Source: Oidiodendron maius Zn (taxonomy: Eukaryota; Ascomycota; Leotiomycetes; Myxotrichaceae). From it: 64,000 bases of DNA. The position numbers and the translations under genes are program-made. The first letter of the stretch is position 1. Every line of letters starts with the position of its first letter. This document shows positions 17,709 through 57,970 of this stretch, piece after piece. The notes below the pieces were generated by a model. That model had not been told where the DNA came from. It ran no database searches and saw only the letters and a program-made list of their open reading frames with translations. Location: assembly GCA_000827325.1 (NCBI GenBank), contig KN832885.1, forward strand, positions 62,001 to 126,000. Reading direction: 5' to 3'.

Positions 17709-19875
17709 ATGACGAGTTCGACAGAGCCAATAGCCTCATGTAACTTGCCTCAGCCTACTGAGGAAATGCAGAATGAGCTTGGAATTGGCAGTGCATCGTC
17801 GATAGATCGAAACAGGGTGAAGCCCGATGGCACTCGAAGAGGAAAGGCAAAAGGAAAAACAAGAGCATTCAGGGTCTTCGAGCCATTATCGCGAAGTAAT
17901 AATTTTTTAGACCTACTCCTATAATATTGGACAAAATATTGATAGAGACCTTTGCAGGATTCCTTAACGAAACCGACGCAAGAGAACATCTTCAACAAAC
18001 AACAGATCTTCCACTGAACGCTGGGCAGCTAGATGAGTCAGAATCCAAATTTCCGCAGTATGAGTTTCTAAATCTGCATGGATCGCACTCGTACACCGAG
18101 GCCTCTCGAACCGCTGCACGGGCTCATGTGATGCGACACGTAGTGAAAGAGAAGGAAGCAAGGAAGGCTTTCCTCATGAAGCAACTCATCCCTACCTCTC
18201 AACGTCTAAATTTAAGCAACCATATAGCGGAAGACCTCTACGCCACAAATGTATCGGGCAGTATGATGATGACTGAGTCTAGATCTGAGCCACTAAGGAG
18301 TTTTGCAAAAGCCTCGTCCAATGATACAGGATACTATTATTACCACACATCACGCGAATTAACAACCCCTCACGCAACAGGTCTTACTGGTAATCATATC
18401 GCTTTAGGACACCTGTCCAATGTGGAAATCGCGCCGAAACAAAGTCCATCACCATTATGCACAAGTATTTTGCCCTTCTCGACTCAGAGACGGGAAGTAG
18501 AACTTATACATCATTGTAAGCTCATTCAGATTTGGCATTGTAGTCCGTTCTGGCCAGACTTACATGTGTGTATATTAACTGACATGCTATGCTACAGATA
18601 TACAAGTTTTTGCCAAATCATCGTTGCCTATGAGTTCTTTGGATGAATCTCAATGGTTTAATAAAGCTTTGAATGATGAAGCTTGCTATCATGGAACGCT
18701 TTTTGTCTCCGCCGCTCATCAAGCTCTTTTGGCTGGAGCAGGCAACGACTTACCTCGCGATTGCTATCGTCATAAAGGTGAAGCTATTAGAATCATAAAT
18801 CAACGCCTTGGTGACCCACATCGACGCATCGAAGACGGCACCATAGCTGCTATAGCATGCTTAGCGGCTTATGAGGTAAATAATCTTTCTGCGTTGTGGA
18901 ATTATCATAGCCTAATCTCGTTGCAGAATGTCAATGGCTCATTAGAGACTGCAGAAGTCCATGTTAAGGGCCTAGAGAGCCTAGGAAATCTGCGGGGAGG
19001 ATTTCACAGCGCTGATATGCCTGTATTTCTAGAGCAAATCGTATACTGGTACGTCACATATGGCTTGAAATCTAATATATCGCATTTGAAAGCGAGAATC
19101 AAGATCCGTGCTCACAACATCTCACAACAGGGTAGAACTCTGCAATGCATCTGCTTTAAAACGGAGAGCACGTTTTATCCCCCAAAATCTCTTGAATCTT
19201 ATGGCACCGAATCTTACGGTTCCAGATTCGCCAGTCTTTACGGCCGTCTGGAACCGGCAGTGGGGCTTTTTGGGTCCTGAAATAGTACCTTTCAGGCTCT
19301 ATGATGGAATGAACATACTACGAGCAACCATGTTTCACCGTATCCGCGAGCTCTCTTACATCCGTGCCAAGGTTCAATCAGTTGGAGAGTTAGCCACAGT
19401 CTCTCAGCAACAGTTTACAAATAAAGTTTTACTTATAGAAAGACAAATAAATGCAATTGTTAATCAGCCAGCAGCAGACGGAAAATCCAGTTCAATGCCC
19501 ATGAGATGTATGCCATTCTACTCCTCAACTCTCCTCTTTGTTTATCTTGTCCTCAGGGGAATCCCGACAACCTCATCGATACTGGGCAACTTCATCACAA
19601 GACTAAGGACTGCTCTCAGCTTCTTGAAGAGAGAAAACAATTGGCAAGAGATCCCGCACGGCTTTTTGCTTTGGATGCTATTTATCGGCGGTTGGGCAGC
19701 TGAGGGACGCCAAGACCGTTCATGGTACTCCGATCATATAGCCTGGTTAGGTACACAAATGAAACTGGAATTCTGGGAGCAGGCAAAGAACGTCATATCT
19801 GAATATGCTTATGTTGATAGTATTTGCGAAAGGCCTGGTAGGAAGCTTTGGGGTGAATCAAAGTATAGATCCTAG
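17709..19875 (+). CDS. Fungal-specific transcription factor domain protein without zinc cluster
   Basis: About 629 residues from exons 17709-17895, 17958-18515, 18598-18875, 18927-19048 and 19131-19875, with consistent phases. Typical landmarks of the fungal-specific transcription-factor (PF11951-like) family appear: NLHGSHSYTEASRTAARAHV, FNKALNDEACYHGTLFVSAA, HVKGLESLGNLRGGF and the C-terminal PGRKLWGES. The N-terminus has a short basic patch (TRRGKAKGKTR) but no Cys-rich DNA-binding motif, which is common in this subfamily. The 51-bp intron at 18876-18926 is in frame and could be retained, changing 17 residues. Function is unknown. It may regulate neighbouring genes or have lost DNA binding. 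Confidence 0.72.
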
Positions 19876-20898: not shown

Positions 20899-21972
20899 AT
20901 GCCGATTCCAAAGCAAGTAGTGCTGGCTATTGGTGGCACAGGCGCTCAAGGCATGCCAGTTGTGAAGGGTACCTTGATCTAACCATTATATTACCCATAA
21001 TCTTATTAACATATCACAGCTCTTGCTAAAGATAGCAAATACACAATCAAAGTTCTAACCCGCACCGTCACGTCCTCCGCGGCCCTCGAGCTCGCCGCTC
21101 TGCCTGGAGTAACCATCATCTCAGGCGACGGATACGATGAAGCAACACTCCATTCGGCATTTCAAAATATCGATCTTGCATTTGTCAACACTAACGGCTT
21201 TGCCGTTGGAGAAAAAGCCGAAATCTACTGGGGCATCCGCATGTTCGAGATTGCCGCTGAGCACGGAGTAAAGCACTTCGTTTGGGCAAACTTGGACTCG
21301 TCCTACAAGCTGAGCGGGTGGAAGCCGCAGTTTAGGACGGGGCACTTCGACAGTAAAACTAAAGTTGCGGATTGGATAAGTGCGCAAGGGAAAGATGGCC
21401 CAATGAAATGGAGCGTGTTAACGAGTTGTATGTATCTGGAGATGTTCTCTGAACTTCTCGCGCCATTCCAGGAGGTGATAGATGGAGAAAAAGTTTTTGT
21501 TTTTAAGGCCCCTGTTGGGAATGGGACACCTCCTATGATTTACCTGGAAGACTTAGGACGCTATGCCAAGTGGCTGTTCGATCATCCCGACAGGTCCAAT
21601 GGCATTAACTTGAAAATTGCAACTGAGCAGGTAGGATGGGCGGATGTGGCAAAAAGCTTCACCGAGATCACTGGAAAGAAGGCGATATTTAAAGACATTA
21701 CGTTGGAGGAGTATTTTGCACTTCCTCTGTTCCCGAATCCGGACGCAAAGGTTGGCCACTCGGTTGGACACGATGATACGACGCTTCAATCATATCGACA
21801 GAACTTTTCGGGATTCTGGAATACATGGAAGGCAAATGTTTTGGTTAGAGACTATGCATTGTTGGATGAGATTCTGCCAACTAGGGTGAAGAGCGTGGGG
21901 GAATGGATGAAGTTGACTAAGTACTCTGGGGAGAGAGGCTCGGTATTGAAGGATTATCGTGATACAAGATAG
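20899..21972 (+). CDS. NmrA-like NAD(P)-binding protein
   Basis: A 340-residue protein with a short first exon (20899-20968) and a long second exon (21020-21972). The exon junction completes the Rossmann glycine motif VVLAIGGTGAQGMPVVKAL. Downstream features of the NmrA/isoflavone-reductase-like family are KVLTRTVTS (NADP-ribose region), NIDLAFVNTNGF, HFVWANLDS and the MIYLEDLGRYAKWLF stretch. Such proteins bind NAD(P) as redox sensors or act as reductases. There is no SDR-type YxxxK catalytic pair. A degenerate 14-bp tandem repeat begins 47 bp after the stop codon. Confidence 0.82.
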
Positions 21973-56316: not shown

Positions 56317-57970
56317 ATGGGTCTGAAAAAGGTTGATAGATTGGAGTTGCCGCCGACGGCGGACATGCACGTCCATCTTAGGCAAGATAAGCTAATGGAA
56401 TTGGTCACGCCTCAAATATCTCATGGGGGAACTGACACAGTGCTCGTGATGGTGAGTATTTTGGGCCTTTGGCCCGGGAGTTTGCGAATTATTCGTGGGC
56501 CAACGTAGCTAACTTGGTGGCTTCCTGTTTTCATCTAGCCCAACTTGCAGCCACCAATTACAACTGTTGCGGCCGCGCTTGAATATTCCTCCAACTTGAA
56601 GTCTATATCTCCAGATGTCAAATTTTTAATGTCTCTCTATCTTCATATAAGTCTCTCAACTCTCTCCCTTATCTATATATGTAATTAACATTGTCTCTAC
56701 TCTTCCATCACGCCTGAGGTGATTGCCGAGGCAGCAGCTGCAGGCATTGCAAACGTGAAGATGTACCCCCAAGGCAAGACTTCTCCCCTGAGCTCCGCAG
56801 AACATAGGATTGACATCTCTTAGGCGTGACCACAAACTCGGCTTCAGGAGTTACTAACCTGGACGATTTCTATCCCGTGTTCGAAGCCATGGAAAAGGCA
56901 AGCCTCCAGATCTAAAGTTACATATTCAAAAGTCATTATGCTAACATCAGCTAAGCACGACATGATGCTTAACCTGCACGGCGAAGTGGCCGACCTAACA
57001 GGCCACGGCGATATTTCACACGAGGAAGCATTTTTGCCATGTCTTAAGGAGCTTAATGAACGCTTCCCTAAACTGCGCCTTGTAAATACGCCTTTTTAAT
57101 TTGTAAAACTTCTCGGAGTCTTACTTCCCTTTTCTGAACAGAACCTGCATGTGTCCGGAAGTTGAGACTTATCTGTGAAGTTATTACTCTGCTAAAGCGT
57201 CTCAACTCCAGCGGATACGAGACACAGCTCCTACTTCATTTTTAAAAGGGCGTATGCTGACTCCGAGATTGATAAGGTACTTGAGCACTGCACGACTGCG
57301 GCAGCACTGGATGCTGTACTTGCTTGCGGCCCAACTGTTGCTGGTATGTGTCCCTTTCCTCCTAACAGATAGATCCCTTGTTAATATACGAGTGATTTGC
57401 AGCCACAATTACAGCGCACCATCTATATTCGACTTTCGCGGACTGCTGCGATCCATTAGCATTCTGCAAGCCTATCCCAAAGAAACCAACAGACAGAGAT
57501 GCGCTTGTTAGAGCTGTAATCAGGGATGAGGATGACGGAAAATTCTTCTTGTAAGGGTTAAAATCGACTGATTTTCAGTGTCCGTTCTAATTCCTCTTTC
57601 CTCCCTTAGCGGGAGTGACAGTGCGCCCCACCTCCTATCGACCAAACACGTTGGACCGGAAGGGAAAGTCCCGGCAGGCGTATATACACAACCATATTGC
57701 ACCCAGCTGGTTCTCCTAGCCTTAGAAGAAGCTGTAGACAGAGGCGTCATCAGCGATGATGATATCACGCAGGAGAAGCTCGAACGATTCTTAAGCAAAT
57801 CAGGGAGACGGTTCTATAAGCTTCCTGAGCCAGCTAAGGGAACAAAGATTATACTGGAGAGAAAAGATGAGATCATTCCCAAGAGTATTAAAAGTACGGA
57901 TGGGAGCGTTGAGGTTGGGAACTCGAGGGCCGGTGCGAAGGTTTGGAGTTTGCGGTGGGAGGGGGTGTAG
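56317..57970 (+). CDS. URA4: Dihydroorotase (pyrimidine biosynthesis) with non-canonical introns
   Basis: A 363-residue dihydroorotase, which closes carbamoyl-aspartate to dihydroorotate. Eight exons: 56317-56451, 56539-56646, 56701-56773, 56824-56897, 56956-57081, 57277-57343, 57403-57550 and 57610-57970. All metal and catalytic residues are present: ADMHVHLR (His-x-His), the carbamylated Lys in NVKMYPQGVTTNS, LNLHGE, VLEHCTTAAALDAV, TITAHHL and GSDSAPH. Four introns are GT-AG; intron 2 is AT-AC and introns 3 and 4 are GC-AG. The non-canonical junctions restore family sequence exactly (LYLH/SSITPEV, MYPQ/GVTTNS, EAMEK/HDMMLNLHGE), so decay is not needed to explain them. Start chosen at 56317, as HVHLR then falls near residue 20. 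A dihydroorotase is normally single-copy housekeeping; whether this is the only copy cannot be judged. Confidence 0.85.
56647..56700 (+). other. AT-AC intron in the dihydroorotase gene
   Basis: A 54-bp intron with ends ATAAGT...CTCTAC and a plausible branch site ATTAAC 12 nt before the 3' end. It joins MSLYLH to SSITPEV with no residue gained or lost relative to the dihydroorotase family. No AG occurs between the donor and the next conserved codons except within CCTGAG of the ITPE motif itself, so a canonical intron would delete conserved residues. The donor looks like GTAAGT with a G-to-A change. Confidence 0.7.
56774..56823 (+). other. GC-AG intron in the dihydroorotase gene (first)
   Basis: A 50-bp intron, CAAG|GCAAGA...CTCTTAG|GCGTG, branch-like TTGAC. 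It splits the conserved MYPQG motif after the first base of the Gly codon. Confidence 0.8.
56898..56955 (+). other. GC-AG intron in the dihydroorotase gene (second)
   Basis: A 58-bp intron, AAAAG|GCAAGC...CAGCTAAG|CACGA, with a CTAAC branch-like site. It joins FEAMEK to HDMMLNLHGE in frame. The alternative upstream AG (CATCAG) would shift the frame. Confidence 0.75.

Follow-up and report, generated by a model that had tools for sequence, protein, structure and literature searches.

The dihydroorotase gene and its introns

The window analysed here, a stretch of 64,000 nucleotides, carries on its forward strand a dihydroorotase gene of the yeast URA4 type, whose eight exons join into a single frame of 363 residues with no internal stops (Table 1). 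All exons are open and conserved, and the seven introns between them were placed by frame and homology. The assignment to the dihydroorotases, which had been made in a sequence-only reading of the stretch, agrees with matches of the joined protein to the Pfam families Amidohydro_1 and Amidohydro_2 and with its closest solved relative, the yeast dihydroorotase 6l0a (phmmer E-value 4.7e-77, 263.2 bits). The alignment with the latter is colinear and full-length, running from residue 6 to 361 of 363 in the query against 2-362 in the yeast protein. A search of the 45.9-Mb genome with TIGR00856 recovered four matches at E <= 0.001, every one of them an exon of this gene; none exceeded the whole-protein cut-off, as is expected for a search made exon by exon. 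A DNA search of the genome returned the same locus only. The gene appears to be single-copy and is treated as such, on the understanding that a strongly fragmented paralogue could escape these searches. Given that this is the only dihydroorotase locus found, a working enzyme should need the removal of the second intron. Potential relatives of the gene were represented by 43 stretches on genome contigs and five on viral contigs that matched the search pattern, none of which was confirmed.

The putative branch sites of the seven introns are GCTAAC, ATTAAC, ATTGAC, GCTAAC, GCTGAC, GTTAAT and TCTAAT, the last two being weak, and the distance from the branch adenine to the 3' end ranges from 10 to 26 nt. 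The AT-AC intron directly precedes two consecutive GC-AG introns of the same gene.

Table 1. Coordinates of the dihydroorotase gene, its introns and splicing signals (window positions), and of two candidate AT-AC introns elsewhere in the genome
Feature	Position	Strand	Description
Dihydroorotase (URA4-like) coding region	56317..57970	+	8 exons joined, 363 aa + stop; Pfam, yeast 6l0a
Intron 1	56452..56538	+	GT-AG, 87 nt
Intron 2	56647..56700	+	AT-AC, 54 nt, phase 0
Intron 3	56774..56823	+	GC-AG (GCAAGA...CTTAG), 50 nt; interval without any GT
Intron 4	56898..56955	+	GC-AG (GCAAGC...CTAAG), 58 nt
Intron 5	57082..57276	+	GT-AG, 195 nt
Intron 6	57344..57402	+	GT-AG, 59 nt
Intron 7	57551..57609	+	GT-AG, 59 nt
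5' splice site of intron 2	56647..56652	+	ATAAGT (GTAAGT with G1 changed to A); from sequence; pairing with the 5' end of the genome's U1 at 7 of 10 positions
Branch-site-like motif of intron 2	56684..56689	+	ATTAAC; branch adenine presumed at 56688, 12 nt before the intron's final base
In-frame TAA if intron 2 is retained	56686..56688	+	from sequence; stop in the retention test
3' splice site of intron 2	56698..56700	+	TAC; from sequence
Candidate AT-AC intron, CDC20/Fizzy-like WD40 gene (L095)	G000:C5:508166-508212	-	47 nt, frame-shifting
Candidate AT-AC intron, histidine-phosphatase gene (L077)	G000:C3:613584-613634		51 nt; preceded by a 9-nt microexon

Fit of the AT-AC interval to the protein family

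The second intron, ATAAGTCT...AATTAACATTGTCTCTAC, follows codon 81 and reads CTTCAT/ATAAGTCTCTC...AATTAACATTGTCTCTAC/TCTTCC with its flanks, so that the excised interval has AT at its 5' end and AC at its 3' end. The TTAAC at 56685-56689 furnishes its branch-like site, and no AG intervenes between the presumed branch adenine and the end of the intron. Excision joins FLMSLYLH to SSITPEV, and the resulting FLMSLYLHSSITPEVIAEAA aligns with FLMSFYLSKDLTPDLIHEAA of 6l0a without any gap, restoring the length typical of the family. The sequence-only reading had described a 54-nt interval beginning ATAAGT and ending CTAC, with a branch-like TTAAC 12 nt from its end, lying between two conserved dihydroorotase blocks and removable with frame and length kept; these particulars proved exact.

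The combination of signals is unusual within the window. Its two strands offer 127,800 intervals of 54 nt, of which 566 have AT...AC ends, while the further presence of AAGT at +3 to +6 and YTRAC near the end leaves a single one, namely 56647-56700. When a 54-nt cut was slid through 16 placements, with starts from 56641 to 56656, recognised intron ends arose only at 56647. Counts of the motifs in the window showed no enrichment, those for GT-AG introns included, and hence the case for the AT-AC intron rests on homology and not on the motif alone.

Splicing signals and spliceosomal RNAs

Two U1 loci were detected in the genome (E-values 1.7e-10 and 1.8e-9, both below the Rfam gathering score), and the RNA from either would start ATACTTACCT. 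The donor of the AT-AC intron, which has G at +5, pairs with this sequence at +2 to +6 and at +8. Two U6 loci exceeding the gathering score are also present. In a comparison made by eye, an NmrA-like gene in the window was found to contain a GT-AG intron (20969-21019) with a branch-like TTATTAACAT and the tail ...TTATTAACATATCACAG; its ATTAAC-like branch site resembles that of the AT-AC intron, and its ending ...CTTATTAACATATCACAG is close to AATTAACATTGTCTCTAC. The U2 type, which had been proposed because the donor is GTAAGT with its first base changed, holds as far as sequence can tell, given the U1 pairing and the NmrA-like branch site. At least 150 HET domains score over the cut-off in this genome (150 of 481 candidates were scored, and all 150 exceeded it), an abundance that we take to be a mark of Pezizomycotina.

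Other introns and genes in the window

Altogether 14 introns were placed in the window, comprising 10 GT-AG, 2 GC-AG and 1 AT-AC intron and 1 GA-AG candidate. They belong to the dihydroorotase (7), transketolase (3), NmrA (1), alpha/beta-hydrolase (1) and short-chain dehydrogenase (2) genes. Set against the 1.3% of non-GT-AG introns in fungal annotations (PMC7072748), the 4 of 14 seen here are a lead and not a result, as the sample is small, was chosen around the AT-AC finding and was placed by eye, with the hydrolase intron placed by frame only.

The GA-AG candidate lies at 59741-59687 on the reverse strand, in the short-chain dehydrogenase gene that starts from 59825, and reads GAATGG...CTAATATATCATAG over 55 nt. 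Its removal restores DQTEK-VFMITGGYSG, giving an N-terminus that is gap-free against 3rd5, and raises the Pfam adh_short score from 57.7 to 63.8 bits; the only alternative listed, a 100-nt GC-AG cut, is weak and loses 15 residues. Elsewhere in the window, at 17903-19872 on the forward strand, three overlapping open reading frames lie in different frames, two of which carry successive parts of Fungal_trans_2. Judged by these frames, the region is a putative transcription-factor gene that is either intron-containing or damaged.

Further AT-AC candidates in the genome

Three versions of the motif were searched for in the whole genome, each with a reversed control: ATAAGT..YTAAC..CTAC gave 43 matches against 91 in the control, ATAAGT..CTAAC..YAC gave 153 against 384, and ATAAGT..GCTRAC..YAC gave 65 against 113. 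None of the patterns is enriched over its control, and hence a motif match alone proves nothing. Individual sites were assessed from the frames flanking them, which had to be open, and from membership of recognisable families, a procedure that could miss introns in unfamiliar genes or beside very short exons. In this manner 109 distinct sites were examined, namely 40 of 40 from the first pattern and 79 of the 94 distinct sites among the 100 matches listed for the second, with 10 shared. Beyond the dihydroorotase intron, two candidates hold up among these sites, one in a CDC20/Fizzy-like gene and the other in a histidine-phosphatase gene. The three AT-AC introns have in common the donor ATAAGT, a YTAAC with its adenine 10-12 nt from the end and no AG thereafter, and a length of 47-54 nt.

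The CDC20/Fizzy-like candidate, ATAAGTACCCCCTTCCTTTGGGGAAATAAATTTCTAACGCTGCTCAC, has a length that is not a multiple of three. Its excision yields RTLPISPF-KVLDAPNLRDDFY, which is gap-free against RKISKIPFKVLDAPELQDDFY of the human Fizzy-related protein; at the junction itself, RTLPISPF-KVLDAPNLRDDFYC, a lysine codon is split by the intron, and the human protein has RKISKIPFKVLDAPELQDDFYL. Enumeration of other cuts found no frame-keeping GT-AG pair, whereas the frame is kept, and the motif spoiled, by one GC-AG cut of 41 nt and by three further cuts with AT-AC ends. The Pfam scores of 186.4 bits for the spliced and 186.9 bits for the read-through product do not discriminate between the two, and the domain starts after the junction. 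The upstream exon is short, with 19 residues to the preceding stop.

In the histidine-phosphatase gene the order of elements is MAPTVILIRHAQALH, a GT-AG intron of 51 nt, the microexon ACGTCAATC, the candidate AT-AC intron ATAAGTCTCTCACATCTCTCAGATGAGTGACCTTAAGCTAACATATCATAC (51 nt) and GCGACTATC..., which on joining would yield RHAQALHNVNRDYHIHDPGLTELG. Inclusion of the microexon raises the His_Phos_1 score of Pfam to 58.1 bits from 52.2 bits without it, and no working GT-AG or GC-AG combination was found by enumeration. A rival arrangement exists in the form of a single GT-AC cut of 102 nt, which gives HNIIRDYH with the same length, and we rate the AT-AC reading here as less certain than that of the CDC20/Fizzy-like gene. 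The 9-nt microexon between the GT-AG and AT-AC introns (G000:C3:613575-613634, in the region 981-1051 of the locus) encodes most of an HNVN stretch.

Several other leads were discarded. A kinase candidate (L023) reads through, two candidates (L079 and L081) are overlapped by ordinary GT-AG introns, and three more (L066, L018 and L021) were likewise rejected. A codon log-odds filter built from 26 long open reading frames of the window (7,462 codons) was dropped owing to poor discrimination and replaced by lists of open frames inspected by eye, the second exon of the dihydroorotase gene itself scoring -0.2. The dihydroorotase and phosphatase introns share the 12-nt start ATAAGTCTCTCA, and its origin from a repeated element was considered and set aside: it has eight exact sites in the genome against four in the reversed control, and the other six sites, when read, are not intron-like. 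Telomerase RNA was considered as a source of ATAAGT..GCTAAC, but scanning 19 loci and the window against Rfam gave nothing at gathering scores, and a screen for Sm-like motifs gave two unconvincing sites. Among the matches to ATAAGT..GCTRAC..YAC, those at G000:C15:703755-703810, C8:515711-515775 and C2:680658-680704 look intron-like.

Alternative explanations

The short distance of 12 nt between branch adenine and 3' end would be in keeping with a U12 intron. This distance, along with the AT-AC ends and the likeness of TTAAC to the final part of the branch consensus of U12 introns, could be taken to mean that the intron is of the U12 type and is removed by the minor spliceosome. However, the donor is ATAAGT and not ATATCC, with ATAAGTCT departing from the quoted rule RTATCCTT (PMC2846911), and the branch context TAATTAAC departs from the quoted consensus CCTTAAC (PMC3033335). 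The distance itself is not diagnostic, for it falls within the 10-26 nt spanned by the gene's own GT-AG and GC-AG introns. Searches of the genome with the U12 and U6atac models, and for the PDCD7 protein family, produced no match, the control genomes being equally without matches, whereas U1 and U6 were recovered. A pan-eukaryotic survey finds convincing minor introns to be absent from Ascomycota and Basidiomycota (PMC10639083), and an earlier study takes the same view of Ascomycota (PMC2846911). Removal by a minor spliceosome is accordingly highly improbable.

It might also be supposed that splicing proceeds through a canonical GT-AG cut or some other one, either alone or in a mixture of cuts, and that the protein goes without 13-16 residues. 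Enumeration of cuts with starts from 56590 to 56669 and ends up to 56761 indeed found six frame-keeping GT-AG alternatives, namely 56617-56718, -56730 and -56760 (102, 114 and 144 nt) and 56651-56734, -56737 and -56743 (84, 87 and 93 nt), together with ten other AT-AC cuts and no GC-AG cut. With each of these alternatives the protein would lose or gain residues in comparison with the dihydroorotase family. The GT-AG cuts would rely on the donors GTCAAA or GTCTCT, every one of them removes conserved residues, and the two products that were compared with 6l0a score 233.3 and 237.3 bits, or 26-30 bits less than the AT-AC product, making their use very unlikely. An assembly error or allelic variant concealing a true GTAAGT...CTAG, or a pseudogene copy, is a scarcely plausible source of the AT-AC ends. 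The presence of two successive GC-AG introns might be taken as a sign of decay, but eight open and conserved exons and the failure to find a second dihydroorotase locus speak against a pseudogene, while an error would have to strike twice, independently, exactly at the first and last bases of the intron and in such a way as to produce the only compensating pair known. Moreover, the two other AT-AC candidates carry an identical donor.

Our preferred reading, to which we give a probability of about 0.9, is that 56647-56700 is a spliceosomal AT-AC intron of the U2 type within the dihydroorotase gene. This reading is favoured by the gap-free family alignment, the restored length, the in-frame stop upon retention and the lower-scoring GT-AG alternatives, by the recovery of U1 and U6 with no recovery of U12, U6atac and PDCD7 in the same genome searches, and by the two further AT-AC candidates in the genome.

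Relation to known AT-AC introns

As the sequence-only reading had noted, U2-type AT-AC introns are known but rare. The AT-AC share is 0.019% among introns in fungal annotations (PMC7072748, Table 1), 0.03% in SnowyOwl models of A. niger and others (PMC4084796), and 0.09-5.19% in human fungal pathogens (PMC6176087), while Trichoderma longibrachiatum has 69 such junctions out of 14,305 (PMC4324775). These surveys give counts; our literature search found no account of an individual dihydroorotase case, and no paper in which dihydroorotase, intron and AT-AC occur together. The kind of intron is known.

One of the closest parallels is intron 21 of human SCN4A, a type II AT-AC intron which shares with the dihydroorotase intron the AT-AC ends, a U2-like donor with G at +5 and the lack of a U12 donor, and which belongs to a type that needs the major spliceosome (PMC2831892). 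The sodium-channel introns belong to a vertebrate or animal family, whereas the intron described here is a fungal one of 54 nt and lies in a metabolic gene. Lin and colleagues proposed that the sodium-channel U2-type AT-AC introns were derived from the U12 type and then trapped (PMC2831892). The fungal ones may have had such an origin or may stem from GT-AG introns through two changes. Within ascomycetes, the protointron of yeast SUT635 is comparable in being an instance of AT-AC splicing in the absence of a minor spliceosome (PMC6726248); however, it lies in a non-coding RNA as an alternative to GT-AG splicing, whereas the dihydroorotase intron interrupts a coding gene of an essential pathway.

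A further parallel is provided by the 3' end of Aspergillus telomerase RNA, which is formed at an AUAAGU or AUACGU donor with a GCUAAC branch site (PMC3603654, PMC4299874). It resembles the dihydroorotase intron in the AUAAGU donor, the YTAAC-type branch site, the setting in a filamentous ascomycete and the U2-type spliceosome (PMC3603654, PMC4299874). The S. pombe spliceosome cleaves at the AUAAGU of the Aspergillus niger RNA and, once A1 is changed to G, yields spliced RNA instead (PMC4299874). In the telomerase RNA the A1 arrests splicing at the end of its first step, with release of the RNA (PMC4299874), whereas the dihydroorotase intron has C as its last base, and its second step is predicted to proceed. 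We did not find this contrast drawn in those portions of the literature that were examined.

Proposed splicing pathway and implications

The ordinary splicing machinery can probably remove this intron. U1 and then U6 would recognise AUAAGU in much the same way as GUAAGU, with the pairing differing at position 1; U2 would select the UUAAC branch site, and the lariat would form on A1 rather than on G1. In step two the altered first base, A1, would find its counterpart in the C that has replaced the usual last base, the pair replacing the usual G1-G contact, and exons 2 and 3 would be joined to give ...SLYLH-SSITPE.... For the second step the first base of an intron must normally touch its last base, and an A1 combined with a final G blocks it (PMC4299874). 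Among end pairs tried in a mutated yeast intron, AT-AC ranked second in efficiency, behind GT-AG (PMC6726248, citing Parker and Siliciano 1993), and this efficiency, together with the C at the end of the intron, leads to the prediction that an A1-C pair lets step two finish. In this scheme we infer transcription and excision of the intron, its branch position, its use of snRNPs and the A1-C contact.

A broader proposal is that the major spliceosome of this fungus tolerates changed first and second donor bases unusually often and retains a set of AT-AC introns of the U2 type within conserved genes (dihydroorotase, CDC20/Fizzy-like and histidine phosphatase), in a clade where the AUAAGU of telomerase RNA has the opposite effect. 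We offer it tentatively, as a possibility of rather low probability.

Genuine U2-type AT-AC introns are rare in fungi, and gene finders limited to GT-AG and GC-AG introns would break the dihydroorotase gene. Owing to its last base C, the intron is predicted to complete splicing, as opposed to the arrest after step one of the same AUAAGU donor in Aspergillus telomerase RNA, and it would thus constitute a natural test of the rule that relates the first and last intron bases in the second step of splicing.
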